64,000 bases of DNA from Mesorhizobium escarrei (GTDB lineage Bacteria > Pseudomonadota > Alphaproteobacteria > Rhizobiales > Rhizobiaceae): the NCBI RefSeq assembly GCF_935825525.1, contig NZ_CAKXZT010000136.1:80958-144957 (forward strand), given 5' to 3'. The translations under genes and the position numbers were made by a program. Numbering within the stretch: the first letter of the stretch is position 1; each line of letters starts with the position of its first letter. The notes beneath the pieces were generated by a model. The model searched no databases, was not told the DNA's origin, and saw only the letters and a program-made list of their open reading frames with translations. Positions 18,656 to 64,000 of the stretch are shown piece by piece.

Positions 18656-18870
18656 ACAGCCGGTTTAGCAAACGAGCCGATGCGGCTACTGTCACAGGAT
18701 CGGTCCGACATTTGTTGGGCTGACCATCATCTGGCTTCTGACCGCTCTTCGTTTTCAGGCTGAGTGCACAGAAGCCCACAGGGATGTGCTCAACGGTCAA
18801 CGGCCGTCTTGACGGGGCGCAAGAACAAAGCGAAAACGCTCGAAGTGAGTCCGGGAGGCGGCGATTGCCC

Positions 18871-20391
18871 ATGCATATTGCGAATGACCCGGCGGACCTA
18901 TTCCGTCACGTGAGTGCCGAGAAGGCCGTGTTCTACCGCTGCATCATGGACGTCTTCGCGGCGGCCAAGCGGCAATACCGTTTGCAGCTGCGGCCCGACG
19001 AAGTGCTTGCCGATGCCCGATGGCCGAACAAGCCGCCGCGCATTGAGGACGTGAATACGGCGCTCACCCAGCTCACGGAATGGGGCAATCTCGAATCGCA
19101 CCCCGACACCGCGCGGGTTTCAAGCCTGAGCGACTTCTACCGTGCACGCTTCCTCTACCGGCTCTCGCAGGGCGGCGAGGCGGTGGAATCGGCCTTGGCG
19201 ACATTCGTACAGACTTTGCAGCGGCGCGCCGAGCTGCAAACCGTGGCGCTCGAGGACATAGCGAGCCGACTGCAGGCACTGCAGTCACTGGCGGAAGCAA
19301 CCCAACCCGACGTGGCCAAGATCCACGAAACACTGCGGGATCTTGTGCGCGTCTTCGAAGGTTTGGCCGAGAACGCGCAGGCGTTCATGGCCGGCGTCGC
19401 TCGCAGCATCGAGCTGCAGCAAGCCGAAGCAGGAGCGGTCGCAAACTACAAGAAGCGGCTAATCGACTATCTCGAACGCTTCATGGGCGATCTGGTACGC
19501 CGTTCCGACACCATCGCACGGCTCATCCTGGCGTTGGAGCCTGAGGTCGAGGCCCTGCTTCGACAGGTGGCCGAGCGCGAATCGCGGGACACGGCTCCAG
19601 GCGGCGCGCACGATCAGGCCGAGGCGCAGAGAGGCTATCTGCAAGCATGGCGAGAACGCTGGAAGGGTCTGCGCGGCTGGTTCCTCAGTACCGGCCATGA
19701 GCCGCCGCAAGCCGAACTGTTGCGGGCGCGGGCACGGTCGGCCATCCCGCAGCTTCTGTCCGCTATCGCTGCGCTGAATGAGCGGCGCAGCGGCCGCAGC
19801 GATCGCTCTGCCGACTTCCGCCTGCTCGCCGGCTGGTTTGCCGCTTGCGCAGACGACGGCGAGGCGCACCGACTTGCGCGGGCTGCCTTCGCTCTCAATC
19901 CGGCGCGGCATTTCTCGCTCAACGCCAGCGCGGACGCCGAGCTGCCGGCCAGCACCTCCTGGGCCGACGCCCCGCCGCTCAAGATTCACCCGCGTTTGCG
20001 CGAATATGGCGAAGCGGCCCCGCGCGGACCGCTGCCGCGCGTGCGCGACCGCGCCGAGGAGCGTGCGTTCCTGGCGCTTCAGCTCGCGGAGGAATCACAG
20101 CAAGTCGAAGCGGCGCGCAAGCGTCTCGCCACTAGCCGCCCGGCGCGGCTTTCGGATCTCGGGGAACTCGACAAGCACGCCTTCGGTCTGTTCCTGGGCC
20201 TGCTCGGGGAGACACTGGCCGAGCAAGCCGGGCCGGAGACGTCGGTGCAACGCCAGACCAGCGACGGCTTGCTGCACATCCACCTGAAGCCGCTTGCCCC
20301 CGACAGCCTCGCTACCATCGACACGCCACATGGCGTCTTTGCCGGGCGCGACCATCTGATCACCATCACCCCCTTGCAGGACGGTCGATGA
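18871..20391 (+). CDS. jetA: Wadjet JetA-like protein (DUF2397/TIGR02677)
   Basis: 506 residues from ATG 18871. TTG 18865 has better spacing (6 bases) from GGGAGG at 18853-18858 and may be the true start. The N-terminus DLFRHVSAEKAVFYRCIMDV followed by WPNKPPRIEDVNTALTQL, and SDFYRARFLYRLSQGGEAVE, resembles the DUF2397 proteins that act as kleisin-like subunits of Wadjet complexes. Long helical stretches follow. It is first of four genes with 4-bp overlaps. In Wadjet, JetABC is an SMC-type motor that extrudes plasmid DNA and JetD cuts it. Family assignment is from memory of the family pattern, not a search. Confidence 0.82.
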   Translation: MHIANDPADLFRHVSAEKAVFYRCIMDVFAAAKRQYRLQLRPDEVLADARWPNKPPRIEDVNTALTQLTEWGNLESHPDTARVSSLSDFYRARFLYRLSQGGEAVESALATFVQTLQRRAELQTVALEDIASRLQALQSLAEATQPDVAKIHETLRDLVRVFEGLAENAQAFMAGVARSIELQQAEAGAVANYKKRLIDYLERFMGDLVRRSDTIARLILALEPEVEALLRQVAERESRDTAPGGAHDQAEAQRGYLQAWRERWKGLRGWFLSTGHEPPQAELLRARARSAIPQLLSAIAALNERRSGRSDRSADFRLLAGWFAACADDGEAHRLARAAFALNPARHFSLNASADAELPASTSWADAPPLKIHPRLREYGEAAPRGPLPRVRDRAEERAFLALQLAEESQQVEAARKRLATSRPARLSDLGELDKHAFGLFLGLLGETLAEQAGPETSVQRQTSDGLLHIHLKPLAPDSLATIDTPHGVFAGRDHLITITPLQDGR

Positions 20392-21677
20392 AGGCGGCGA
20401 ACGGTTCCAACGGTGGTCGCGGCATTGGCCTGCTGCAGCAGCGCTTCCAGCGCGAGGAGTTTCGCGCCTGCGTGCGGGCCCTGCTGATGACGCCGTTGAT
20501 CGGCCCGGGGCATGAGGATTTCGCCGCCATACGCCGCCAGGCCGAAGCATTGCGCGAATGGTTTTCTCGCGAGACCGGCTGGATACTGCAGGTCGAGCGC
20601 GAGGGCGCGCGCCTCTACAAGCGGCCGGGAAATCTGACCGACGCCATGCGCGGCATTGCCGGCTACGATCGCCGGCGCTACGTGCTGCTTTGCCTCGCCT
20701 GCGCGGTGCTCGAACGCGCCGACCCGCAGATCACTTTGCGCCTGCTCGGCGAGAGGCTGCTGGAACTCGCCGCCGAGCCGACGCTCGACTTCACCTTCGC
20801 CCTCGAGGCGCAACACGAGCGGCGCGAACTCGTTTCGGTGTGCCGCACATTGCTGAGCCTCGGGGTGCTGCACCGCGTGGCCGGCGACGAGGAAACGTTC
20901 GTGCAGGCCGGAGGCGATCAGGCGGATGCGCTCTACGACGTGCAGCGCCGCATGCTGTCCGGCATGCTGGCGGCCGTGCGTGGCCCCTCCACCTGGACTG
21001 CGGAAGAGGCGCCGGCAACGCTCGAAGAGCGGCTGTGCGCGCTGGTCGGCGAACAAGTGGCGGACAGCGAGGAAGGTCGGCGCACGGCGCTGCGCCACCA
21101 GCTCGCACGCCGGCTTCTCGATGATCCGGTAGTCTATGTCGAGACGTTGGATCCGGAAGCCCGTGCGTACTTCCTCAACCAGCGCGGAGCGATGGCCGCC
21201 CGCCTGTGCGACGCTGCCGGCCTGGTGGCGGAACAGCGCGCAGAGGGGCTGGCGCTGGTCGACGAAGCCGGTCTGCTGACCGACGTGGCGATGCCTGCCG
21301 AAGGCACCGACGCCCATGTAACACTGCTTGTCGCCGAATATCTGGCCGCCGGGCAAAGGCAGCGGCGAGCCGATGGCGGCGACACGGCGCAGGCCTCCGC
21401 TCGGGATATCAATGAGCATGACATTGCCGGCTTCCTGCACGAGGCCAAGGCCCAGTACGGCCGTTACTGGCGTAAATCGGCGCGCGAGCCAGGCGCCGAA
21501 CGCGAACTCGCTGCCATCGCGATCGAGCGATTGGAAAAACTGCAGCTGGCGGTGCGGGAAGCCGGAGCCGTACATCCACTGCCGGCGCTGGCGCGCTTCG
21601 CGCTGGGCGAAGCCGAAATTCGCGAAACGCGCAAAGCGTCGGCAGCGGACGTCGGGTTTCGGTTCGAACCGACATGA
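20388..21677 (+). CDS. jetB: Wadjet JetB-like protein (DUF2398/TIGR02678)
   Basis: 429 residues, starting within the jetA stop (ATGA overlap). It looks like the DUF2398 family: LLQQRFQREEFRACVRALLM at the start, FAAIRRQAEALREWFSRETGW, RLYKRPGNL, RRRYVLLCLACAVLERADPQ, and the acidic winged-helix-like middle. In Wadjet complexes this subunit is the KITE-like partner that binds JetA and helps connect to the SMC-like ATPase. The ending overlaps jetC by four bases. No frameshift or premature stop is seen. Confidence 0.82.
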   Translation: MKAANGSNGGRGIGLLQQRFQREEFRACVRALLMTPLIGPGHEDFAAIRRQAEALREWFSRETGWILQVEREGARLYKRPGNLTDAMRGIAGYDRRRYVLLCLACAVLERADPQITLRLLGERLLELAAEPTLDFTFALEAQHERRELVSVCRTLLSLGVLHRVAGDEETFVQAGGDQADALYDVQRRMLSGMLAAVRGPSTWTAEEAPATLEERLCALVGEQVADSEEGRRTALRHQLARRLLDDPVVYVETLDPEARAYFLNQRGAMAARLCDAAGLVAEQRAEGLALVDEAGLLTDVAMPAEGTDAHVTLLVAEYLAAGQRQRRADGGDTAQASARDINEHDIAGFLHEAKAQYGRYWRKSAREPGAERELAAIAIERLEKLQLAVREAGAVHPLPALARFALGEAEIRETRKASAADVGFRFEPT

Positions 21678-24600
21678 ACGACCGCTTGGACCTGCTCGGC
21701 TTGACGCCGGAAAAACCGGCTTTGCCGATGCCCACTCGGCAGCGCTGGCAGCCTCTGCGCCTGGGCCTGGTGGAGCTCTTTCACTACGACAGCGAGGAAT
21801 TCTGGTTCCGCGACGGCCATCTGTTGCTGCGCGGCAATAACGGCACGGGCAAGTCCAAGGTTTTGTCGCTCACGCTGCCGCTGCTGTTCGACGCGCAGCT
21901 CAAGTCTTCGCGCGTCGAGCCCGACGGCGACGGCGGCAAGAAGATGGCCTGGAATCTGCTGATGAACAGCTACGACCGGCGCATCGGCTATGCGTGGATC
22001 GAGTTCGGTCGCGTTGCGGAAGACGGCAGGCCACGTTTTCTTTCGCTCGGCGCCGGCCTTTTTGCGACAGCAGCTCGGCCGCAGGTCGACAGTTGGTTCT
22101 TCCTGCTGGAAGACACCGACAACGCGCCGCGTATCAACCAGGATCTGTGGTTGACGAGTCCGCAGCAGGTAGTGCTGAACAAGGAGCGCCTGCGCGACGC
22201 AATCGATGGCCGTGGCCAGGTGTTCGACACCGCGGCCGGCTACCGTCGCGCCGTCGACGAGCGGCTGTTCCATCTGGGCACCAAGCGCTACGACGCGTTG
22301 ATGGACACGCTGATCCAGCTTCGCCAGCCGCAGCTTTCTAGAAAGCCGGACGAAACCGCGCTTTCGAATGCGCTGACCGAGGCCCTGCCGCCGCTAGCGC
22401 CCGAACTGCTCGGCGACGTTGCCGAAGCGCTCGGGCAGTTGGAGGAAGACCGCCGCCAGCTCGACGAATATCAAACACTGGCCAAGGCCGTCAGCCGTTT
22501 CGAGGAGCGTTATCGCGTCTACGCTGGCACGCAGACCCGCCGGCAGGCACGCTTGTTGCGCCAGGCCCAGACGGAGTTCGACAATGCCAGCCGCGCACGA
22601 GGTGAGGCCCAGGCTCGCTTCGACGAAACGCAAAGGCAGGAAGCGCTGGAGCGGACCGCTCATGATAGCGCCGAAATCGCGCTGGCGCGCGGGCGTGCGC
22701 GGCTCGACACCTTGCGCTCCGACCCGACGATGCAGGATGCCAACCGCCTCGAAAATGCCGAAAAGGAGAAGGCGGCGCGACTGCAAGCGATGCAGAGGGC
22801 GACATTGGCCGTCGAAGAGGCAGGCCGACGACTGGAGTTCAGCAGCGAAGAAACCGAACGCGCAACCCGGCGCGCGGAGCAGGCGGAACGCGCATTGGCC
22901 GATCTGCGCCGGGAAAGCGCTGTTCACGCCGATGCGGCGGGTATCGCCGGCCAGCACGACGGAAACCTCCTCGCCAAATTGGAGGCTTCCGCGCTGGCCT
23001 CACTGACACAGCATGCTTTCGATGGGGCCTGCGCCGAGCTTCGCAACCTCGTTGCCGGCCGGCGTGAACAGATCGCGTTGCTGCGTCGCCGCCACGGCGA
23101 GGTCGCTCAGGCCGAGGCCGCCTATATGCGGCGCCGCGAAATCCGGGATGAGCGGCAGGTCGAAGCCGAAGAGGCTGCCGAGCGTCGGACCCGAGCTGAC
23201 GCCGAGGTCGAACGACAAGGCCGGGACCTGGTGGAAAACTGGGACCGCCATTTCATCGGCCTGAAGCAATTGCAGATCGATCCCTACAGCAGGCCGGCGG
23301 CACTGACGGCCCTGGCGGAATGGACAGCGTCGCTGCAAGGCGACAACCCTGCCCGCCACCTTCTGCAATCGGCGTACCAGGGAGCCAGTCTGTCGCTGAC
23401 ACAGCGTCGCGTGGCGCTCGACGGCCAGCGACAGGCGCTGGAGATGGAATACGGACTCCTCGAAGGCGAACGGGGACGCCTCGAGGCCGGCGACGACATG
23501 GCGCCGCCCCTGCCCTACACGCGCGACGCCGCTGTCCGGGACACGCGTCAAGGTGCGCCGCTCTGGCAAGTGATCGATTTTCGCGGCGCAGTGGCTGCAC
23601 CGCAACGCGCCGGCCTTGAAGCCGCGCTTGAGGCAGCCGGGTTGCTCGACGCCTGGATATCGCCTGACGGACGCCTCCAGGCCGGCGACGGCGGCACCCT
23701 GCCTTACGACACCCAGCTGCTGGAACGGCAACAGCATTCTCCGTCGCTCGTCGACTGGCTGGAAGCCACCGTGCCTGCCGGCTGCGCCGTGCCGGCCAGT
23801 ATCGTCGAGCGGGTGCTGTCGGGCGTCGCCTCGGCGGATGAGGATCCGATCGATAGCGAGGCCTGGATCTCCACCGACGGCCGCTTCCGCCTCGGCGCGC
23901 TGTCCGGTGCGTGGGGCAAGCCGGAGGCGGTCTACATTGGCCACGCGGCCCGCGCCGCAGCCCGCGAGCGGCGGTTGGCCGAGATTGCTGGCCGCCTTGC
24001 GCAACTCTCCGATGAATTGACGGCCGTGCGGGCAAAAGCCGAGCAGCTCGGGCTGGATCGCGAACAGGCCGACGAGGAATGGCGCGTTGCGCCGTCCGAC
24101 GAGGTATTGCGGCGCGCTCATATGACCGCCAGCACCGCCGCCAACGCCGCGCGCCTGGCCAGCGAAAAACTGAACGAATCGGATACGCGCTGTCGCGAGG
24201 CCGAACAGGCGCTCAAGGCCTTGCGCGAACAGCTCGCCGCAGATGCCATGGACCTGCGCCTGCCGGCAACGCCCGACGCACTGCCCGCCGTCGAAGCGGC
24301 GCTGGATCATTACCGCGATGCACAGGTCCGGCTCGAGCAAGCAGCTCACGAGTTTTGCCTGGCACTGCCCGAGCAGCAACGGCAACGTGCCCGCCAGCGC
24401 GAGGCGCGCAGCGACGTGCAGCAGCGCGAAGAGGAACTCGTGGCTGCCCGCATTGAAACGGAAGACGCCACTGCCCGGCTCGAACTGCTGCGGGAAACGG
24501 TCGGCGCCAAGGTCGAGGAACTGCAGCGAAGGCTGACCGATGCCCGCCGCGCCGTCGAAACCGGCGAAGCCGAGCTGAAGCTCGCCGGCTATAGATTGCG

Positions 24601-25852
24601 CAAAGCGGGTGAGGCACGCGCGGTTGCCGGGCAACAGGCCGAGACGGCGAACGCCGTCGTTCAGGAACGCGGCGAAGCACGCGCCGAGGCGATCTCCAGA
24701 TTGCAGCAGTTTGCAGGCACCGGCCTGCTGTCTGCAGGGCTGCCGTATATCGAACTGCCTGACATCGGCAGCCCGTGGACGATCGACCCCGCTCTGACGC
24801 TGGCCAGACGCGCGGAACAGGAACTGTCGAACCTCAAGGATGACAACGAGGCGTGGGCGCGCGTCCAGCGGCAGATAGCCGAGGAACTGACCGAGTTGCA
24901 GCGCGCACTCGGCGCGCTGGGCCACCAGGCCCAGGCCGATCCCAGCGACTGGGGTTTCCGGGTGGATATCGTCTATCAAAACCGGCGCGAGCGGCCGGAC
25001 CGCCTCGCCATGCGGCTGGCCGAAGAGATCGCCCAGCGCGGCGAACTGCTCAGCGCCAACGAACGCGCCGTCCTGGAGAACCATCTGCAGGCCGAGATCG
25101 CGGCAGAGATCCAGCGCCTGTTGCAGGCTGCCGAACGCCAGGTCGATGCCATCAACGGCGAACTGCACAAGCGCCCGACCTCCACCGGCGTGCGCTATCG
25201 GCTGTTGTGGCAGCCGCTGTCCGAAGAGGAAGGCGCGCCGGTGGGCCTCGACGTGGCGCGCAAGCGCCTGCTCAACACCAGCGCGGACCTTTGGTCGGCA
25301 GACGACCGGCGCGTCGTCGGGGCGATGCTGCAGCAGCGCATCGCCGCCGAGCGGGAGCGCGCTGATGCCATCGGCGGAAAGGACAGCGGCGGCACCTTGC
25401 TCGACCAGCTCGCCCGCGCCCTCGATTATCGCCATTGGCACCGCTTCCGCGTCGAACGCTGGCAGGACGGCCATTGGCGCAAGCTATCCGGACCCGCTTC
25501 GAGCGGCGAGCGGGCGCTCGGCCTCACGGTGCCGCTCTTTGCCGCTGTCGCCAGCTTCTACAGCCAGAGCAGCTATGCCTTGGCCCCACGGCTGATGCTG
25601 CTCGACGAAGCCTTTGCCGGCATCGATGACGCAGCGCGAGCGCATTGCATGGCGCTGATCCGCGAGTTCGATCTGGACTTCGTCATCACCAGTGAGCGCG
25701 AGTGGGCCTGTTATGCCGAACTGCCGGGTGTCGCCATCTGCCAGTTGCAGCGGCGCGAAGGCATCGATGCCGTATTCGTCTCGCGATGGACTTGGGACGG
25801 ACGAGAGAAGAAGCCCGAGGCTGATCCCGATCGCAGATTTGCGCCGGCATGA
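21674..25852 (+). CDS. jetC: Wadjet JetC-like SMC ATPase (TIGR02680)
   Basis: 1392 residues. Walker A GNNGTGKS is at 54-61. Two long coiled-coil arms (about 250-580 and 780-1080, rich in EAER and QAE patterns) flank a globular hinge-like part at about 600-760. The ABC signature SSGERAL is at 1276-1282 and Walker B LMLLDEAFAGIDD at 1307-1319, with Asp1311 and Glu1312. This is the SbcC/SMC-like motor of the system, expected to bind and translocate DNA. All nucleotide-binding residues are intact, so the operon is probably functional. Its start overlaps jetB and its end overlaps jetD, each by four bases. Confidence 0.9.
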   Translation: MNDRLDLLGLTPEKPALPMPTRQRWQPLRLGLVELFHYDSEEFWFRDGHLLLRGNNGTGKSKVLSLTLPLLFDAQLKSSRVEPDGDGGKKMAWNLLMNSYDRRIGYAWIEFGRVAEDGRPRFLSLGAGLFATAARPQVDSWFFLLEDTDNAPRINQDLWLTSPQQVVLNKERLRDAIDGRGQVFDTAAGYRRAVDERLFHLGTKRYDALMDTLIQLRQPQLSRKPDETALSNALTEALPPLAPELLGDVAEALGQLEEDRRQLDEYQTLAKAVSRFEERYRVYAGTQTRRQARLLRQAQTEFDNASRARGEAQARFDETQRQEALERTAHDSAEIALARGRARLDTLRSDPTMQDANRLENAEKEKAARLQAMQRATLAVEEAGRRLEFSSEETERATRRAEQAERALADLRRESAVHADAAGIAGQHDGNLLAKLEASALASLTQHAFDGACAELRNLVAGRREQIALLRRRHGEVAQAEAAYMRRREIRDERQVEAEEAAERRTRADAEVERQGRDLVENWDRHFIGLKQLQIDPYSRPAALTALAEWTASLQGDNPARHLLQSAYQGASLSLTQRRVALDGQRQALEMEYGLLEGERGRLEAGDDMAPPLPYTRDAAVRDTRQGAPLWQVIDFRGAVAAPQRAGLEAALEAAGLLDAWISPDGRLQAGDGGTLPYDTQLLERQQHSPSLVDWLEATVPAGCAVPASIVERVLSGVASADEDPIDSEAWISTDGRFRLGALSGAWGKPEAVYIGHAARAAARERRLAEIAGRLAQLSDELTAVRAKAEQLGLDREQADEEWRVAPSDEVLRRAHMTASTAANAARLASEKLNESDTRCREAEQALKALREQLAADAMDLRLPATPDALPAVEAALDHYRDAQVRLEQAAHEFCLALPEQQRQRARQREARSDVQQREEELVAARIETEDATARLELLRETVGAKVEELQRRLTDARRAVETGEAELKLAGYRLRKAGEARAVAGQQAETANAVVQERGEARAEAISRLQQFAGTGLLSAGLPYIELPDIGSPWTIDPALTLARRAEQELSNLKDDNEAWARVQRQIAEELTELQRALGALGHQAQADPSDWGFRVDIVYQNRRERPDRLAMRLAEEIAQRGELLSANERAVLENHLQAEIAAEIQRLLQAAERQVDAINGELHKRPTSTGVRYRLLWQPLSEEEGAPVGLDVARKRLLNTSADLWSADDRRVVGAMLQQRIAAERERADAIGGKDSGGTLLDQLARALDYRHWHRFRVERWQDGHWRKLSGPASSGERALGLTVPLFAAVASFYSQSSYALAPRLMLLDEAFAGIDDAARAHCMALIREFDLDFVITSEREWACYAELPGVAICQLQRREGIDAVFVSRWTWDGREKKPEADPDRRFAPA

Positions 25853-56453: not shown

Positions 56454-58097
56454 TCAAAAATCCAAATCCATATCGTGATGATGATGCTCGTGACCGGGAA
56501 GCTCCGGCGGCGGCGGGCCAGGCACTTCGGCCACCATGGCCTCCGTCATGATGAGGAGGCCTGCCACCGAGGCTGCGCCCTGGAGCGCCGTTCGCACCAC
56601 CTTGGCCGGGTCGATGATGCCCTTTGACACCAGATCACCGTACACGCCCGATTGGGCATCGTAGCCATAGGCGTTGTCGTCGTTTTCGAGGATCCCGGCG
56701 ATGACGACCGAGCCTTCCAGGCCGGCATTGATCGCGATTTGCCGAGCCGGCCAGGTGATCGCCTTCCTGACGATCGCGATACCGACCTGCTGGTCCTCGT
56801 TGCTGCCCTTGAGCTTCTTGAGCGCCCTGCCGGCGCGCAGCAAGGCGACCCCGCCGCCGGGGAGAATGCCCTCTGCAACCGCGGCTCTTGTCGCGTTCAT
56901 CGCGTCATCGATGCGGTCCTTCTTCTCCCTGACCTCGACTTCGGTTGCACCGCCGACCCGGATAACGGCGACGCCACCGGCGAGCCTGGCCAGCCGCTCC
57001 TGGAGGTTCTCGCGGTCGAAATCGGAGGTGGTTTCCGCAAGCTCGAGCTTGATCTCGGCGATGCGGGCCTCGATTCTTTCCCGCTTGCCGGCGCCGCCGA
57101 CGATCGTGGTGTTTGCCTTGTCGATCATCGCCTTCTTGGTGCGCCCGAGCATATCGAGGGAAGCATGCTCGAGCTTGATGCCCAAATCCTCCGAGATCAC
57201 TGTTCCGCCGGTCATCAGCGCGAGATCCTGCAGCATCGCCTTGCGGCGATTTCCGTAGGCCGGCGCCTTCACGGCTGCAACCTTGAGAGCGCCGCGCAAC
57301 TTGTTGACCACCAGCGCCGCCATCACCTCACTCTCGACATCCTCGGCGATGATGAGCAGCGGCTTGCCGGCCTGCACCACCTTCTCCAGCAGCGGCAGTA
57401 TTTCGTTCAGACTGGACAGCTTCGTCTCGCTAATGAGGACATAGGCATCCTGCATCTCGACCCGCATCTTTGCGCGATTGGTGATGAAATGGGGCGAGAT
57501 ATAGCCGCGGTCGAACTGCATGCCCTCGGCGAATTCGACTTCGGTTTCGAGCGACGTCCCGTCCTCGACAGTGATCACGCCGTCATTGCCGACCCTCTTC
57601 ATCGCGTCGGCGAGGCAACGGCCGATCTCCCTGTCGCCGTTGGCCGAGATGGTGCCGACTTGCGCAATCTCGACGTTCGAGGTGACCTTCGTGGCGTTGT
57701 TTTTGAGTTCCGCGACGACGGCTTCGACCGCGAGATCGATGCCGCGCTTCAGGTCCATGGGATTCATGCCGGCGGCCACCGCCTTGGCGCCCTCCCGGGC
57801 GATCGCATGCGCAAGCACGACGGCGGTGGTCGTGCCGTCGCCGGCCTGATAGGAGGTTTTTGTTGCTATCTCGCGCACCATCTGGGCGCCCATATTCTCA
57901 AACTTGTTGTCGAGTTCAATTTCCCTGGCGACGGTCACGCCGTCCTTCGTGACCCGCGGCGCGCCGTGCTCCCTGCCGATCGCGACGTTGCGCCCCCGCG
58001 GGCCAAGCGTGACGCTCACCGCATTCGCCAGGGTGTCAATGCCGCGCAGCATTCTGTCGCGAGCCTCGAACGAAAACATGATCTCCTTGGCAGCCAT
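56454..58097 (-). CDS. groEL: GroEL-type chaperonin with His-rich tail
   Basis: 547 residues, the usual GroEL length. The chaperonin motifs are [34 protein letters not shown] at about 86, and [11 protein letters not shown] near 413. The C-terminus is not the normal Gly-Gly-Met repeat; it reads [20 protein letters not shown], an acidic and His-rich tail that could bind metal. No groES is next to it. The gene is 55 bases after hemA on the same strand, with AGGA eight bases upstream. Rhizobia have several groEL copies; this one may fold heme- or copper-enzyme parts of the neighbouring respiratory genes. Confidence 0.93.
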
Positions 58098-58152: not shown

Positions 58153-59511
58153 TCAGGCGAGATTGTCCCGTGGCAGCCCGAGCCGATTCCAGATATCGAA
58201 CAAAGCTGCCGCGAGCCGATCAATCATGATGTCCTCATGACAGGGTGTCGGCGTGATGCGCAGCCGCTCAGTTCCCTTCGCCACGGTCGGATAATTGATC
58301 GGCTGGATATAGATGTCGTGATCGCTCAGCAGCAGGTCGCTCGCCGCTTTGCAATGCGCCGGATCGCCGACTGCCACCGGAACAATATGGGTGTCGCTCA
58401 GGATGACCGGCAGCGCAGCGGCACCCAGCGCCGCCTTGACCCGCCGGACGCGGTCCTGCTGGCGCTTGCGCTCCCACTGCGAGGTTTTCAGATGCCGGAT
58501 CGCCGCTGTGGCCGCGGCGCAGATCGCCGGCGGCAACGCGGTGGTGAAGATGAAACCCGGAGCATAGGACCGAACCGCATCGATCAGCACAGCACTTCCC
58601 GTGATATAGCCGCCGAGGCAGCCGAAGGCCTTGGCGAGCGTGCCTTCGATCACATCGATCCGGTTCATGGCGCCGTCGCGCGCGGCGATGCCGGCGCCGC
58701 GAGGGCCGTACATGCCCACAGCATGGACCTCGTCGAGATAGGTCATTGCGCCGTAACGATCGGCGATTTCGCAAATGCGATTGATTGGCGCGACGTCGCC
58801 GTCCATCGAATAGAGACTTTCGAAGACGATGAGTTTTGGCCGATCCGGACCCGCTGCCTTCAACAATTCCTCGAGATGATCGACGTCGTTGTGGCGGAAA
58901 ATGCTCTTCTCCGTGCCGGACTGGCGGATGCCCTCGATCATCGAATTGTGGTTGAGCGCATCGGACAGGATCAGACAACCGGGGATCAGCTTGGCGATGG
59001 TCGAGATGCCAGTCTGGTTCGAAACATAGCCGGACGTAAAGACCAGTGCCGCTTCTTTGCCGTGGAGATCGGCAAGCTCGCTCTCGAGCTCTAGGAGCGG
59101 ATGGCTGGTGCCGGAGATATTGCGCGTCCCGCCGGCCCCCGTTCCCAGGCGGGTAGCAGTCTCCACCATGGCGGCGACCACTTTTGGGTGTTGTCCCATC
59201 CCGAGGTAGTCGTTGGAGCACCAGATCACGACGTCCTTCGGTCCATGCGGGGAATGCCACACGGCTTTGGGAAAGCGTCCGGCGATGCGCTCAAGGTCCG
59301 CGAACACACGGTAGCGCCGTTCCTCCTGCAGACGCGCGATCGCATCTGCAAAGAAACCGTCATAACTCGTATTGCCTGGCTCCAAGATACGGCGTTGCCC
59401 ATCGGCCATATCGCCCGCATCTCCGGTCATCGGAGGTCCAAATCGCCGCGGCGCAATGACGTTCTTTACGCCGCCAGATTTGCCGGTGTGCAACGCTGTG
59501 GGTTCCGCCAT
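58153..59511 (-). CDS. hemA: 5-aminolevulinate synthase
   Basis: 452 residues. [70 protein letters not shown] and [14 protein letters not shown] mark the PLP-dependent ALA synthase; Lys294 is the Schiff-base lysine. It condenses glycine with succinyl-CoA to make 5-aminolevulinate, the first step of heme synthesis in alphaproteobacteria. A 48-residue N-terminal extension precedes the usual start ([14 protein letters not shown]), and start codon choice is therefore uncertain (internal Met around 28 or 35). It lies in one direction with SCO, the small unknown gene and groEL, suggesting extra heme for the oxidase genes. Confidence 0.93.
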
Positions 59512-59582: not shown

Positions 59583-59825
59583 TCACGACCCGCGTTCAGA
59601 AAGGTCGAAATTGAGCTGCAACATTCGCGCTATATTTATCAGAATTGTCTCGCAGACCTTATCTTGATTAGGATCCAGATATTTGACAGTCCAGTTTGCC
59701 CCGTTCTCCTTGGTTTCGAGCCGCTGAATCACGAAATCAGTGACGTGCTCGCATCCCGGCTCCTTATGAAGATCCGCGAGGATCAATGCCTTAAGCTCCG
59801 ATGCTTCCTTTATATGTCTTTGCAT
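59583..59825 (-). CDS. Conserved-looking hypothetical protein
   Basis: 80 residues from ATG 59825, with AGGAG about seven bases upstream. QRHIKEASELKALILADLHK and GCEHVTDFVIQRLETKEN, then WTVKYLDPNQDKVCETILIN. It has no signal peptide and no membrane helix. Two cysteines (in GCEH and VCET) might bind a metal or form a disulfide. I do not recognise a family. It is placed between SCO and hemA in the same strand, so a role in oxidase or heme function is possible. Confidence 0.7.
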   Translation of the reverse strand: MQRHIKEASELKALILADLHKEPGCEHVTDFVIQRLETKENGANWTVKYLDPNQDKVCETILINIARMLQLNFDLSERGS

Positions 59826-59905
59826 GGTCGCTCTCCTTCCGGATGACAACTTTCTATGGATCGATCAACTGCATAATCGTGATGTCCGTCATCCCAGGGC
59901 TCGTA

Positions 59906-60508
59906 TCATCGCACCAGTTCACCCAACGTAGCGGCAATGCCGCTGCTTGGTGTGTCAGAGTCTAGCCCCTCCACGAATTGCCCCTGTGGGTTCATGATGT
60001 AGATGTGGGTGCCGTGATCCATTAGGTAGTCGTCACCGCCCGCCTCGCCCTGGCGCGCCACACCGTAGGCGCCATATGCCTCCGAAACCTCAGCGATCTG
60101 TTGCGGGCTGCCCGTCAGTCCCACGATGCGCGGATCGAAGGCCGCGGTAAAGCTTCCCATCACCTCAGGCGTGTCGCGTTCGGGATCGACAGTGATGAAG
60201 AGCGGTTGCAGTTTTGCGGCGTCGGGGCCGAGTTCCTCAATCGCCGCGGCGATTGATGACAGCGTCGTCGGACAGATGTCGGGACAAGAAGTATAGCCGA
60301 AGAAAACCAGCAGCCATTTGCCGCGATAAGTCTCATCGGTGACTGTCGTTCCGTCCGGCGCCGTAAGCGTGAATGAGCCGCCGACCGTCACGGATGTGTC
60401 ACTCCGCGCGAGCGGTTGGCAGATCGACAGGGCCGCTGCGAATATGATGCAGAAGCGGGATATGGGGGACCGTAGGCCCGGAGCGAGGAGTTCATGCCGT
60501 CGGCTCAT
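59906..60508 (-). CDS. SCO1/SenC-family copper chaperone
   Basis: 200 residues from ATG 60508 (GGAGG six bases upstream). A signal anchor at about 17-35 (RFCIIFAAALSICQPLARSD) precedes a thioredoxin-like domain with the copper-binding motif TSCPDICP, Cys75 and Cys79, and the third ligand His165 in DHGTHIYIMNPQG. It delivers copper to the Cu centres of heme-copper oxidases in the periplasm. The gene is divergent from the cupredoxin-like and oxidase genes at 60684 onward, across a region with a GTTTGC-N5-GCAAAC dyad. Confidence 0.92.
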   Translation of the reverse strand: MSRRHELLAPGLRSPISRFCIIFAAALSICQPLARSDTSVTVGGSFTLTAPDGTTVTDETYRGKWLLVFFGYTSCPDICPTTLSSIAAAIEELGPDAAKLQPLFITVDPERDTPEVMGSFTAAFDPRIVGLTGSPQQIAEVSEAYGAYGVARQGEAGGDDYLMDHGTHIYIMNPQGQFVEGLDSDTPSSGIAATLGELVR

Positions 60509-60554
60509 CAAGTACCTCCGGTACCTCGAGAAAGACGCTCCAAAACCCCGCAAC

Positions 60555-60571
60555 GTTTGCAACTAGCAAAC
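60555..60571. promoter_or_regulatory. Inverted repeat in the divergent promoter region
   Basis: GTTTGC-AACTA-GCAAAC is a perfect 6-bp inverted repeat with a 5-base centre, between the SCO gene (start 60508) and the cupredoxin-like gene (start 60684). It could be an operator common to both directions. No FNR/FixK-type TTGAT-N4-ATCAA box is seen nearby. Confidence 0.45.
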
Positions 60572-60683
60572 TCGCCTAAACTGCCGAACCTTATCATATT
60601 TTTTTGCTGAATGGCTAGACATGGTGCTGGTTTGGCCCTATTTTTAAAAGTTGCCCCTCACCCTAATGAAGGAGGTGGCGTCC

Positions 60684-61400
60684 ATGACCATTCGCGAATT
60701 GATTAGCGGGCTGGCGGTGATCGCTGTCGTTGCGATGATGTCCGCGCCTGCGCAAGCCTACGAAGTGGGTCCGGTCACGGGAGGCGGAACGATCGAGGGT
60801 ACGATCGTCTACCGCGGCGACGTGCCGACAACAAAGATCATCCCCACCAAGGATATCGAGGTGTGCGGCGAGCCCCGCGAGGAGCCGCTGATCGAAGTCG
60901 GCAGCGATCAGGCCGTGCTGAACGCGGCGGTGCAGCTGGTCGACGTGGCACAGGGAAAGGCCTGGCCGGAGCCCGGAAAGCCGCCTGAGCTTAACAACCT
61001 CAAATGTCGCTTTGAGCCCGCGGTTCAGATGATACCCGCCGGTTCGCTGGAGGTGGTCAACAGCGACCCAATGCTCCACAACACCCACGGGTATTATGGC
61101 AAGCGCACCGCCTTCAACCTGGCGCTGCCTAATAAGGGCCAGCGCATACCCGTCGAACTGAAGCGGGCCGGCACTGTCCGCGTCGACTGCGACGCGCATG
61201 GCTGGATGGAAGGCTGGGTCTATGTGGTGGACAATCCCTACTACGCTGTCACCGGCGTCGACGGCAAATTCAGCATAACCGATGTTCCGCCTGGGGACTA
61301 CAAGCTCGTGGCGATCCACCCCTTCACCGGGCCCATCGAGCAGCCCGTAACGGTAGAGGAGAATAAGGCCACCAGTCTGACGATTGAACTGAAAAAATAA
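60684..61400 (+). CDS. Exported cupredoxin-like, carboxypeptidase-regulatory-like protein
   Basis: 238 residues from ATG 60684 (GGAGG eight bases upstream). A signal peptide (GLAVIAVVAMMSAPAQA) is at 1-25. The middle is a cupredoxin-like domain with possible type-1 copper ligands: His132 and His135 in LHNTHGYY, then Cys169, His172 and Met175 in DCDAHGWMEGWVYV. The end is a carboxypeptidase-regulatory-like beta domain (GVDGKFSITDVPPGDYKLVA). It heads the plus-strand run to the oxidase. It may shuttle electrons or copper to the oxidase. The copper site is inferred from sequence. Confidence 0.8.
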   Translation: MTIRELISGLAVIAVVAMMSAPAQAYEVGPVTGGGTIEGTIVYRGDVPTTKIIPTKDIEVCGEPREEPLIEVGSDQAVLNAAVQLVDVAQGKAWPEPGKPPELNNLKCRFEPAVQMIPAGSLEVVNSDPMLHNTHGYYGKRTAFNLALPNKGQRIPVELKRAGTVRVDCDAHGWMEGWVYVVDNPYYAVTGVDGKFSITDVPPGDYKLVAIHPFTGPIEQPVTVEENKATSLTIELKK

Positions 61401-61408
61401 GAAAATGG

Positions 61409-61434
61409 GCGACCCACTGATTCAACAGGGTCGC
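61409..61434 (+). terminator. Intergenic hairpin
   Basis: GCGACCC-ACTGATTCAACA-GGGTCGC has a perfect 7-bp stem, nine bases after the cupredoxin-like stop and 57 bases before the phosphoesterase start. No T-run follows. It may attenuate transcription or protect the upstream messenger, setting a higher level of the cupredoxin-like protein. Confidence 0.45.
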
Positions 61435-61490
61435 GCTCCTGCGAGAAGACCGACGCTTTAAGAAACGGTCTGCACTGAGGAGGAACCGTG

Positions 61491-62636
61491 ATGTCTGACG
61501 AGCTTGACCGCATTCGGCGCGAAATGCATGCGGTGCTGCAGCCGCCTGGAGTACGGCCCGACGACTCGCTCCAAATCACCCGCCGCACCTTCATTCACAG
61601 ATCGCTGCTGTTCGGCGCTGCTTCCGTCGGCCAGACCTTCGCGTGGTGGCCGCTGCTCAACACTATCGACGTCGCTCACGCCGCCGAAGCGCCCTTCAAG
61701 TTTGCCTGGATTTCGGACACCCATCTCTACGAGAGATCCCTCAACACGCGCTTCGTCGACAAGGTGGTGCGCGCCGTGCAAGAGGTCCAGGCCATGGATC
61801 CGCCGGCCGACTTCCTGATCTTCGGCGGCGACCTGGCCCAGCTCGGAAAGATCGAGGAACTTGAGCTTGGCGTTGAGCTCCTCAAGGATCTGAAGATCAA
61901 GAAGTACTACATCCCGGGCGAGCATGACTGGTATCTGGATATGGGCAAGAAGTGGGGCGAGTTGTTCGGCCAACCCAACTGGACCTTCGATCACAAAGGC
62001 GTGCGCTTCATCGGGCTCGATACGGTCAGCCGGGGACCGGACTACTGGACAGCGAAGAAGATGACGCCAGAGGAGCGCATGGGCCACATGGCTACCCTCG
62101 ACGGTACGGTTGCCGGCGCGTGGGCCGGCGTCGGCCGCGAGCAACTCGACTGGATGCAGAAGACACTCGCCGACTGGGATAAGTCCAAGCCGATCGTCAT
62201 CTTCAGCCATAATCCGCTGTACGAGTACTACCCGCCCTGGAATTTCTGGGTACGCGACTGGCGCGAAGTGAATGACGTGCTGAAGCCTTATACTAAGGTC
62301 ACCAACATCCACGGTCACGTTCACCAGGTGCTCTACAACGAGATCGGCAGCATGCGCTCGATCGGCATGCTGGCGACCTCCTGGCCGTGGCCGTATGCGC
62401 CGGAAGGCGTGCCAAAGCTGACCAAGCCGATGATCCGTGTCGATCCGGGCGATCACTTCGACGGGGTCGGTTGGGAAACCGTGAACGTCAACGCCGACGA
62501 CAAGGTCGATGTCGAGTACATCATGTGGGGGCGCAAGGAGGTGTTCGTCCAGACGCCGGAGGACCACGACAAGAGCATTGAGGAGGTCATACGGCCACGC
62601 ATCGCCGACAATCAGTACCCGTGGGCAAATCCATAA
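61491..62636 (+). CDS. Tat-exported metallophosphoesterase
   Basis: 381 residues from ATG 61491 (GAGGAGG seven bases upstream; GTG 61488 is also possible). TRRTFIHRSLLFGAASVGQT at about 30-50 is a Tat signal. The calcineurin-like motifs are DTH at 76-78, GGDLAQ at 112-117, GEHD at 143-146 in place of GNHD, SHNPLYEY and GHVHQVL. The Asn-to-Glu change in GNHD is unusual and may alter metal use. Neighbours are a cupredoxin-like protein and a c-type cytochrome, so it may act in periplasmic maturation of the respiratory chain. The substrate is unknown. Confidence 0.85.
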   Translation: MSDELDRIRREMHAVLQPPGVRPDDSLQITRRTFIHRSLLFGAASVGQTFAWWPLLNTIDVAHAAEAPFKFAWISDTHLYERSLNTRFVDKVVRAVQEVQAMDPPADFLIFGGDLAQLGKIEELELGVELLKDLKIKKYYIPGEHDWYLDMGKKWGELFGQPNWTFDHKGVRFIGLDTVSRGPDYWTAKKMTPEERMGHMATLDGTVAGAWAGVGREQLDWMQKTLADWDKSKPIVIFSHNPLYEYYPPWNFWVRDWREVNDVLKPYTKVTNIHGHVHQVLYNEIGSMRSIGMLATSWPWPYAPEGVPKLTKPMIRVDPGDHFDGVGWETVNVNADDKVDVEYIMWGRKEVFVQTPEDHDKSIEEVIRPRIADNQYPWANP

Positions 62637-62647
62637 AGGGGGTGGCT

Positions 62648-63112
62648 ATGATAAACACATCGACATTCCTCTGCATTCTGAGGCGTTCCACCGTCGCTGG
62701 AGCGATCGTCGCAGCTGCCGTCGTCGTCGGGCCGGCCAGTGCCAACAAGGATCCGGTGACGCCAAAGCAGCTGAAACTCTATCAAGAGGCGTTCATGGAG
62801 GAGGTCAGGAAGGGAGACCTCCTGTTCCACGGTGATGCGGCGATGGCGGAGCAGTTGGGCGTGAAGCTGTCGACCACCGGGTGGGCCTGCGCCATGTGCC
62901 ATCCGATGGCCTCCGATACCCACCCGCATGCGTTCCCCAAGTTCCAGCAGTCGATGGCCAAATTCGCGACACTGCGCGACATGATCAACTGGTGCATCGA
63001 GAAACCGAACCAGGGCGAGAAGATCGATCCCGAATCGGAGGCGATGAAGGCGCTCGAGGCGTACATCACCTGGTCGAACACCGGCTCGGTGTTGGTGCCA
63101 GGCAAGTACTAG
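62648..63112 (+). CDS. Periplasmic c-type cytochrome
   Basis: 154 residues from ATG 62648, with an AAGGGGG just upstream. A signal peptide (STVAGAIVAAAVVVGPASA) is at about 14-32. One heme-binding CAMCH motif is at 81-85, and the likely distal ligand Met87 follows in HPMASD. The rest is helical (FPKFQQSMAKFATLRDMINW, EAMKALEAYITW). It is probably an electron carrier for the oxidase encoded next. It follows the phosphoesterase by 11 bases and precedes the oxidase by about 110. Confidence 0.88.
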   Translation: MINTSTFLCILRRSTVAGAIVAAAVVVGPASANKDPVTPKQLKLYQEAFMEEVRKGDLLFHGDAAMAEQLGVKLSTTGWACAMCHPMASDTHPHAFPKFQQSMAKFATLRDMINWCIEKPNQGEKIDPESEAMKALEAYITWSNTGSVLVPGKY

Positions 63113-63223
63113 TCTCGTCGATAGCCGGGCACCGGCTTCACGGGAGCGCGAAGCGAGTCCCATCGGGAAGGGTGGGCTTGAAGCAGTGGTGCGGCCCGGG
63201 AACCGCGCGGGGAGGTCTATGCG

Positions 63224-64000
63224 TTGGCAGAGACTGGGATGGAGCTGCGCGGCAAGTTCGCGAATGTGGACCTGGATGCGCTGGTCGACAACCGGGTCGT
63301 GCGGACCTGGCTTTATTTCGGCATGTTCTGGCTGATGGTGACGCCATCCGTCGGCGTCCTGATATCGAGCACCTTCAACTACCCCGACTATCTTGGATCG
63401 GGAAACCTAGAGCTCACCTTCGGCCGGCTGCGGCCGGTCCACGTCAACGGTGTCATCTTCGGCGCCTTCTCGACGCTTTTCATCGGCCTTTGCTATTATC
63501 TCGTGCCGCGTCTGTCGGGGGTGCGGGTGATATGGTCGGAGTGGTCGGTTCTCCTCGCATGGGTCTGGAACGTCGCAACGCTTGCCGGTTTGGTCGGCTT
63601 GCTGTTCGGCGACAGTGACGGTTTGGAAGCCGGAGAATTTCCGCTCTATGCGAAGGTCGCATTCTTCATCGTAGTGGCTGTTGCTACCGCGCAATTCCTG
63701 ATCACGATCAGTCGAAGGCTCGAGCCGGCGATCTATGTCGCGCTATGGTACTTGATCGCCACTTTCGTGTGGACGACGATGAACTTCGTGCTTGGAAGCT
63801 TCATCCTGCCGTACACGATCTCGGGCATCAACAGCGCAGCCTTCCATGGCCTCTATCTCCACTACATCGTCGGCCTGTGGCTAACGCCCGCGGGCTACGT
63901 AATCATCTACTATTTCCTGCCGATCAGCGCGCGAAATCCGCTCTATGCCCATAAGCTCTCGCTGGTAGGCTTTTGGTCCCTGGCATTGTTCTACCCGTTC
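63224..64000 (+). CDS. Divergent cbb3-like (CcoN-type) oxidase subunit, partial
   Basis: The frame runs open from TTG 63224 (GGGGAGG eight bases upstream; ATG 63239 possible) to the window end, 259 residues. It is a polytopic protein. RLRPVHVNGVIFGAFSTLF has the conserved RPxH of CcoN with His73 as likely heme ligand. LHYIVGLWLTPAGYVIIYYF matches the CcoN helix with the copper ligand His213. Typical CcoN has G-H-N-A-V-G-F there and this one reads L-H-Y-I-V-G-L, so it is divergent. FWSLALFYPF lies where the crosslinked Tyr of cbb3 oxidases occurs. The next His pair and the remaining helices lie outside. NO-reductase-like alternatives cannot be excluded. Confidence 0.82.
   Translation, partial: MAETGMELRGKFANVDLDALVDNRVVRTWLYFGMFWLMVTPSVGVLISSTFNYPDYLGSGNLELTFGRLRPVHVNGVIFGAFSTLFIGLCYYLVPRLSGVRVIWSEWSVLLAWVWNVATLAGLVGLLFGDSDGLEAGEFPLYAKVAFFIVVAVATAQFLITISRRLEPAIYVALWYLIATFVWTTMNFVLGSFILPYTISGINSAAFHGLYLHYIVGLWLTPAGYVIIYYFLPISARNPLYAHKLSLVGFWSLALFYPF

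Follow-up and report, generated by a model that had tools for sequence, protein, structure and literature searches.

The right-hand end of a 64,000-nucleotide stretch of a 7.71-Mb Mesorhizobium genome (M. escarrei, contig NZ_CAKXZT010000136.1, positions 80,958-144,957; hereafter the window) holds the start of a gene for a CcoN-like oxidase subunit I, set among genes for copper handling, heme synthesis, protein folding and periplasmic electron carriers. An earlier note on this DNA, made from its letters alone, placed eight genes here, and Pfam and NCBIfam confirm all eight at their positions (lengths in amino acids, aa):

56454-58097, minus strand: GroEL with a His-rich C terminus (Cpn60 of Pfam; TIGR02348, 780 bits, above cut-off).
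58153-59511, minus strand: 5-aminolevulinate (ALA) synthase (TIGR01821 of NCBIfam, 677 bits, above cut-off).
59583-59849, minus strand: 88-aa protein, family not assigned (no match in the Pfam scan).
59906-60562, minus strand: SCO1/SenC copper chaperone, divergent from the cupredoxin gene (PF02630, E 4e-50).
60651-61400, plus strand: cupredoxin with a predicted type-1 copper site, from a structural model and its fold match, and a C-terminal carboxypeptidase-regulatory-like domain (CarboxypepD_reg).
61488-62636, plus strand: metallophosphoesterase with a twin-arginine signal and a GEHD motif (PF00149, E 6e-13).
62621-63112, plus strand: monoheme c-type cytochrome of SoxA/TsdA type, with heme motif CAMCH and an invariant Cys in NWC (PF21342, E 1e-9); an ATG start lies 27 bases inside the open reading frame (ORF).
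63224-64000, plus strand: N-terminal 259 of the 485 aa of the CcoN-like subunit I (COX1 of Pfam, E 7e-28 for this part and 1e-71 for the whole protein).

The CcoN-like gene runs on past the window edge to window-equivalent position 64681 (5225-6682 of L003, the adjoining stretch of the same contig, in which we read past position 64000), and its neighborhood extends at least to window-equivalent 72.5 kb (L003 14473). Reading on gives the full subunit I of 485 aa with a CcoO-type fusion protein next to it, and L003 adds the following genes:

Directly after subunit I, same direction: 554-aa protein in which a FixO/CcoO domain is joined to two more cytochrome c domains (FixO, PF02433, E 2e-43).
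Same direction: 74-aa protein, weakly FixS-like (E 0.16, below cut-off and behind an equally weak DUF5316).
Same direction: 80-aa protein, weakly FixP_N-like (E 0.06, below cut-off).
Same direction: two ORFs (59 and 40 aa) with no reliable family assignment.
Same direction as the oxidase: DsbD_2-domain protein, then a copper-type P-type ATPase (CcoI-like).
Beyond the ATPase, opposite strand: flavocytochrome c flavoprotein, small cytochrome c, SoxZ and a SoxY-like protein.

Relatives of the 80-aa protein score E 0.0006 (Manganitrophus) and E 0.003 (Kutchimonas) against FixP_N, both below cut-off, and two others give no match. None of the four small ORFs scanned at this oxidase locus matches FixQ. 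An ordinary fixNOQP-GHI set lies on a separate contig of the same genome (C101, L004; gene names assigned from sequence), and its subunit I scores above the ccoN cut-off. Sigma-54-like promoters in the window number 33, against 30.5 expected.

To place the window's subunit I, we number residues as in Pseudomonas stutzeri CcoN, from an alignment with structure 3mk7. A scan of genome contigs with a six-sequence profile gave 405 pattern matches, 329 of them relatives, of which the best 80 (79 distinct loci), spanning 44-100% identity to the window's subunit I, were analyzed. The branch that holds the window's subunit I is called the Gly203 family here. Its census alignment has 78 members, the window plus 77 of the 79 loci (L080 and L096 were left out as too short), and was compared with 20 other CcoN sequences from the same and related genomes; the 78 members are 76 distinct sequences and, because many rows are close relatives, the residue counts are not independent. 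Residue 203, four residues ahead of the CuB histidine, is Gly in 78/78 members whereas it is Trp in 20/20 other CcoN. Residue 202 is His in 77/78 and residue 208 is Tyr in 76/78, compared with Asn208 in all 20 of the others; both rows of the L013 type also have Trp203 and Asn208. These three residues lie outside both search patterns. All six His that bind heme b, heme b3 and CuB are present at each site in 78/78 members, as is Tyr251 of transmembrane helix 7 (TM7). Tyr251 and the TM2 ligand of heme b are themselves covered by the search patterns, and part of their conservation therefore reflects how the sequences were selected. The motif L-H-Y-I-V-G, which had been singled out from the sequence as the departure from typical CcoN, is present (L212-G217, in a gap-free alignment), but the change of Trp203 to Gly stands out more.

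A further 62 C-family rows (60 of them distinct, with some genes that had been included before) divide into 10 of the Gly203 family, 49 that have Trp203 (49/49; 47 distinct) and three, L189, L190 and L266, that form a second Gly203 group. The last three read T-G-x-[WF]-I-H-D, so that residue 205 is Trp or Phe and residue 208 is Asp. Gln323 and Gly243 had looked specific to the Gly203 family when set against the first 20 CcoN only; they were dropped as signatures, since 42 of the 49 Trp203 rows have Gln323 together with Gly, Ala or Ser at 243.

The rest of the enzyme is of cbb3 type. A CcoO homologue is found in 79/79 loci, with two c-heme domains fused behind the CcoO domain and three CXXCH motifs in 76/80; three heme motifs are the total of CcoO and CcoP together. 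An AlphaFold2 model of subunit I, made from a 30-row alignment (pLDDT 81.9, pTM 0.86), best matches solved cbb3 oxidases: Z 50.0 for 3mk7 (root-mean-square deviation 2.1, 444 residues aligned) and Z 48.9-50.0 over five cbb3 entries, compared with 44.9 and 42.3 for two cytochrome c-dependent nitric oxide reductases (cNOR) and at most 37.1 for A-type oxidases. Against TIGR00780, the equivalog for canonical CcoN, the window's subunit I scores 225 bits, below the cut-off of 583, and the FixN of the same genome 776. By sequence, then, the window enzyme belongs to the C-family of heme-copper oxidases, and its subunit I lies outside canonical CcoN, as judged by the TIGR00780 score and the missing Trp203.

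Phylogeny separates the Gly203 family in the same way. In a first tree of 82 rows (25 of 107 were left out, mostly near-copies) the family is one clade, with support 95/89. A second tree of 79 rows drew on 24 earlier family rows, 13 of the 20 other CcoN, 6 of 7 nitric oxide reductase (NOR) rows and the 62 new rows, with 28 of 107 then left out. Here the two Gly203 groups stand together (98/85), as do 42 Trp203 rows (96/85); the Gly203 family alone has 96/59, and the NOR rows are a clade of their own (100/100). When residues 196-232 are removed, quick trees still part the Trp203 rows from the rest by a single branch, with SH-aLRT 96 when NOR is included and 97 when it is not, and support for the Gly203 family alone is 92 and 57. 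In the motif-free tree with NOR, long branches draw the second Gly203 group to NOR and the Gly203 rows do not fall on one side, which makes it unsure where the C-family is rooted and whether the two Gly203 groups are one. Within this sample, Trp203 CcoN and the Gly203 family are robustly separated. The earlier note had held that an ordinary enzyme would fall inside CcoN with ccoO and ccoP beside it; hemes of CcoO and CcoP type do adjoin, and the subunit falls outside the sampled ordinary CcoN. Its suggestion of an incompletely described branch is thus borne out by a separate C-family branch in the trees, but the oddity at the active site has been in print since 2013, for Nitrospina gracilis and Sinorhizobium SM11.

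The 79 loci come from rhizobia, other Alpha-, Beta- and Gammaproteobacteria, SAR324, Myxococcota, Binatota, Rokubacteria, Acidobacteria, Gemmatimonadota, Nitrospirota (including Candidatus Manganitrophus), Nitrospinota, Gallionellaceae and Sericytochromatia. Host phyla were taken from record titles and many loci are single contigs of metagenome bins; together with odd placements (L077, Deltaproteobacteria, is nearly identical to L078, Binatia, and L052, Gammaproteobacteria, lies among rhizobia), this means that single taxon labels may be binning errors. Within groups the distribution is patchy: a match to the oxidase occurs in 2 of 349 Pseudomonadota, and 15 of 198 Nitrospirota genomes exceed the threshold, 10 of them strongly (671-772 bits). 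The other five are G670, with a Gly203 family gene in two overlapping frames, G623 and G655, with the second Gly203 group, and G569 and G577, which bear Trp203. A Gly203 family subunit is the sole PF00115 protein (E ≤1e-10) in the Manganitrophus genome of L083, Nitrospira CR1.2 (L087) and two Nitrospinaceae (L085, L103), assemblies that are possibly incomplete.

Closer to home, the window's oxidase is 100% identical to the copies of Mesorhizobium ventifaucium and M. muleiense, and among 150 relatives an oxidase of at least 69% identity occurs in eight, seven Mesorhizobium and G126, which is of another family. Plasmids hold 44 matching records at E ≤1e-60, and the 38 with at least 60% identity are from Sinorhizobium, Rhizobium and Phyllobacterium. 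Ensifer copies are 97-98% identical to the window's oxidase and that of Sinorhizobium SM11 is 96.4% identical; this near-identity in Ensifer and the many copies on Sinorhizobium plasmids make recent transfer likely. The locus of S. meliloti SM11 (plasmid pSmeSM11c, L209) is a mosaic in which the block from oxidase to ATPase is 91-96% identical to the window, except for the 59-aa ORF at 83%. Its flanking accessory genes are 54-87% identical and rearranged, and a 40-aa remnant of a cytochrome adjoins subunit I.

The genes around subunit I differ in how widely they are kept. Over the 79 loci, many of which are short so that neighborhood counts are lower bounds, we find the CcoO-type protein in 79, the FixP_N-like protein in 70, the cupredoxin in 59, the DsbD-like protein in 53, the cytochrome and the copper ATPase in 52 each, and the phosphoesterase in 50, followed by SCO in 33, GroEL in 30, ALA synthase in 25 and the 88-aa gene in 12. 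Flavocytochrome c (FCSD), SoxY and SoxZ genes are nearby in 31, 32 and 33. Cupredoxin, phosphoesterase and cytochrome occur together in 49/79 loci and are collinear in all 49, mostly directly upstream of subunit I; they are downstream in two Nitrospirota (L086, L092), and in the remaining loci they lie 2-7 kb from subunit I, six of these having them on the opposite strand. The proposal that this oxidase has accessory genes of its own is upheld to the extent that such genes are conserved across phyla and co-occur with the oxidase in Mesorhizobium, but it is only the rightward genes that are widely conserved. The eight-gene neighborhood is not kept as a whole: leftward GroEL, ALA synthase, SCO and the 88-aa gene are mostly rhizobial and are rearranged in Sinorhizobium SM11, and the 12 loci with the 88-aa gene are all Mesorhizobium or Ensifer/Sinorhizobium. 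The His-rich tail of GroEL, read correctly from the window copy, is kept with variations in 27/29 GroEL copies near oxidase relatives; the two exceptions are the L085 copy, of Nitrospinaceae, and that of L048, where the ORF is short.

The cupredoxin had been a guess from sequence, now supported by an AlphaFold2 model (pLDDT 93.6) whose best solved matches are amicyanin (E 4e-6) and plastocyanin, and by the invariance of H132, C169, H172 and M175 in 22/22 copies. The C-x2-H-x2-M spacing is that of amicyanin. These results support the assignment of gene 60651-61400 as a cupredoxin with a predicted type-1 copper ligand set. The cytochrome has one CxxCH motif and an invariant Cys in 16/16 rows, one row being the diheme SoxA/TsdA-domain protein of L013. 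In that genome (G143; L013 231-1142 and 1261-2832) the diheme protein lies directly before a different, Trp203-bearing CcoN with CcoO.

The phosphoesterase is strongly conserved. Eleven homologues are 57-88% identical to the L054 copy, and the reading of a twin-arginine (Tat) protein holds: the stretch RRTF (residues 31-34 of the L054 copy) keeps both Arg in 12/12 copies. GEHD is likewise present in 12/12, where GNHD is usual. Among the 150 relatives it is found (E ≤1e-30) in seven genomes, exactly the seven oxidase-bearing Mesorhizobium; G126, the eighth oxidase genome, is without it. Of the 349 Pseudomonadota, both genomes with the oxidase carry it, and G345 gives a far weaker match (285 vs 730 bits). 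Plasmids hold 43 records, 40 rhizobial and three of Methylocystis, and no pmo gene lies within 12 kb of the phosphoesterase in the two Methylocystis plasmid regions examined. When 20 genomes, chosen mainly because no phosphoesterase had been seen near the oxidase, were searched whole, it appeared in three: two genomes included as positive controls and a third in which a contig end interrupts the locus. Twelve loci have subunit I fused with the c-heme parts into one protein of 864-1034 aa; L083, one of them, has a weak cupredoxin match, and two Nitrospinaceae loci carry fusions of 941 and 939 aa.

We think it probable (about 0.75), from sequence comparisons, that the window ends in the start of an operon for a distinct, Trp203-less branch of C-family (cbb3-like) cytochrome c oxidase that reduces O2. 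Electrons could enter from periplasmic carriers, most likely the upstream-encoded cupredoxin and SoxA/TsdA-like cytochrome, and would then pass through three c hemes and heme b to the heme b3-CuB site, where O2 would be reduced to water at low O2. SCO, the copper ATPase and the DsbD-like protein might serve copper handling and thiol or heme maturation, and in rhizobia ALA synthase could add heme supply and GroEL folding. A separate FixP_N-like helix protein and a FixS-like protein are suggested by matches below cut-off. The phosphoesterase might help to mature or protect a copper or heme site in the periplasm, although this role is a guess. Loss of Trp203 implies that the step served by that residue is done differently in the Gly203 family.

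Several observations weigh against this account. A phosphoesterase paired with a SoxA/TsdA-like cytochrome also adjoins pmoCAB in G345 (L200 4358-12658) and G768 (L206 8414-17978), the pmo genes being named by Pfam (AmoC, AMO and Monooxygenase_B in G345; AmoC in G768), so the pair is not specific to the oxidase. This pair is distant, about 40% identical for the phosphoesterase and 37-40% for the cytochrome, and it is flanked by two MauG/MbnH-like diheme proteins in place of the cupredoxin, with CopC, CopD and PCuAC also in G345 and no CcoN-like gene of the Gly203 family seen. The phosphoesterase occurs in 4 of 119 genomes of the family of G345 and G768; of the other two carriers, G802 has a contig that begins in a pmoC fragment and G735 has no pmo in the 14.5 kb examined. 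The phosphoesterase is also absent from the 12 fully fused loci, some with short flanks, and from the eight fused-type genomes among the 20 searched whole, and the cassette thus lies outside the catalytic core. L003 has 4 FixK/FNR-like boxes (TTGA-N6-TCAA, allowing one mismatch) where 4.3 are expected, which gives no evidence for FixK/FNR-type control. Sulfur genes are mainly in loci of rhizobial type, and the literature searched yielded no biochemistry on any member of the Gly203 family.

Other explanations can be set against a Trp203-less O2 reductase. That the enzyme reduces nitric oxide, in respiration or detoxification, appears improbable: the C-family and NOR folds are close (the cNOR Z scores of 42.3 and 44.9 above) and the Trp change alters a helix that bears a CuB ligand, yet the TM7 Tyr, which in cbb3 oxidases is cross-linked to a CuB His, is present in 78/78 members and replaced by Thr or Ser in the seven NOR rows. 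CcoO homology, the usual three c hemes and the 100/100 support that parts these sequences from the NOR rows argue in the same direction, and O2 is probably the substrate. An ordinary cbb3 paralogue whose odd residues drifted neutrally after horizontal transfer among rhizobia would explain the Ensifer copies that are 97-98% identical and the gene's presence on many Sinorhizobium plasmids; we consider it highly improbable, as these changes are also fixed in members that share only 44-60% identity with the window's copy, including genomes in which no other heme-copper oxidase was found.

The adjoining flavocytochrome c and SoxYZ genes suggest that reduced sulfur could be one electron source in rhizobia, and a stronger form of this idea would make the enzyme a dedicated terminal oxidase of sulfur oxidation, fed by flavocytochrome c, SoxYZ and the SoxA/TsdA-like cytochrome. 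The frequencies of FCSD, SoxY and SoxZ, their presence in the SAR324 locus L057 and the Cys that the cytochrome shares with the diheme protein preceding the Trp-bearing CcoN of G143 fit such a role. Most non-rhizobial loci have no Sox genes in the DNA examined (SoxB and SoxAX were not sought), and the cytochrome pair also adjoins pmo, so that we regard a dedicated sulfur function as rather unlikely. More tentatively, the Gly203 family may be a third deep C-family lineage without the near-universal Trp, present in many phyla and the sole heme-copper oxidase in some metal- and nitrite-oxidizer genomes, in which one large sub-branch has gained a new periplasmic input module (blue copper protein, Tat phosphoesterase and SoxA/TsdA-like cytochrome) with parts that also serve particulate methane monooxygenase.

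Compared with canonical CcoNOQP/FixNOQP (L004 and 3mk7), the enzyme has the same fold, six His ligands, Tyr251, CcoO, c hemes and CcoI-type ATPase. It differs in that its subunit I is 30% identical to the FixN of its own genome, with W203 to G and N208 to Y, and in that the heme part of CcoP is fused to CcoO, leaving a lone FixP_N-like helix protein (below cut-off). The nearest described system is the fused oxidase of N. gracilis, which we know from its paper only; our own data set holds two other Nitrospinaceae fusions. That paper describes His202, Gly203 and Tyr208 for the N. gracilis oxidase and for Sinorhizobium genomes such as SM11, and links the transfer of electrons from heme b3 to CuB with the conserved Trp close to CuB (Lücker et al. 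2013, PMC3578206). N. gracilis likewise fuses CcoO- and CcoP-type hemes, but it joins all three subunits in one 954-aa protein, whereas the window has a separate subunit I and the cupredoxin-phosphoesterase-cytochrome cassette. The active-site oddity itself is thus already published for Nitrospina and Sinorhizobium.

Papers on Nitrospirales (PMC10579370) and Manganitrophaceae (PMC9040806) call cbb3 oxidases of these groups canonical, and papers on iron oxidizers use the proximal and distal CcoN of Ducluzeau et al. 2008 (PMC8788666, PMC7029218, PMC10734462). In our search of the Manganitrophus GAC4 genome, the one such oxidase detected belongs to the Gly203 family. The proximal and distal subtrees are likewise C-family; the sampled Trp203 groups, two of which we infer to be these subtrees, branch together, apart from the Gly203 family. 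Literature searches, with subscription journals mostly outside them, turned up no paper that names the Gly203 branch or the cassette, and no mention of a metallophosphoesterase linked to cbb3, cupredoxin or SoxA, or to pmoCAB or MauG. Judged by these searches, the branch's depth and spread, the second Gly203 group and the helper cassette are new. Because the Gly203 family supplies the sole oxidase found in some manganese- and nitrite-oxidizer genomes, from groups whose cbb3 enzymes are called canonical, inferences about O2 affinity and proton pumping there may rest on the wrong model enzyme. A natural branch that lacks Trp203 but keeps every metal ligand and the Tyr offers a ready comparison for the role of the Trp, and the cassette brings a strongly conserved phosphoesterase into respiratory copper and heme biology.

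Elsewhere in the window, at 18784-25852, lie genes for DUF2397 and DUF2398 proteins and a MukB-like ATPase. A scan of the next ORF gave no JetD match; the three genes themselves have JetA, JetB and JetC of the type II Wadjet anti-plasmid system as their best PADLOC matches.

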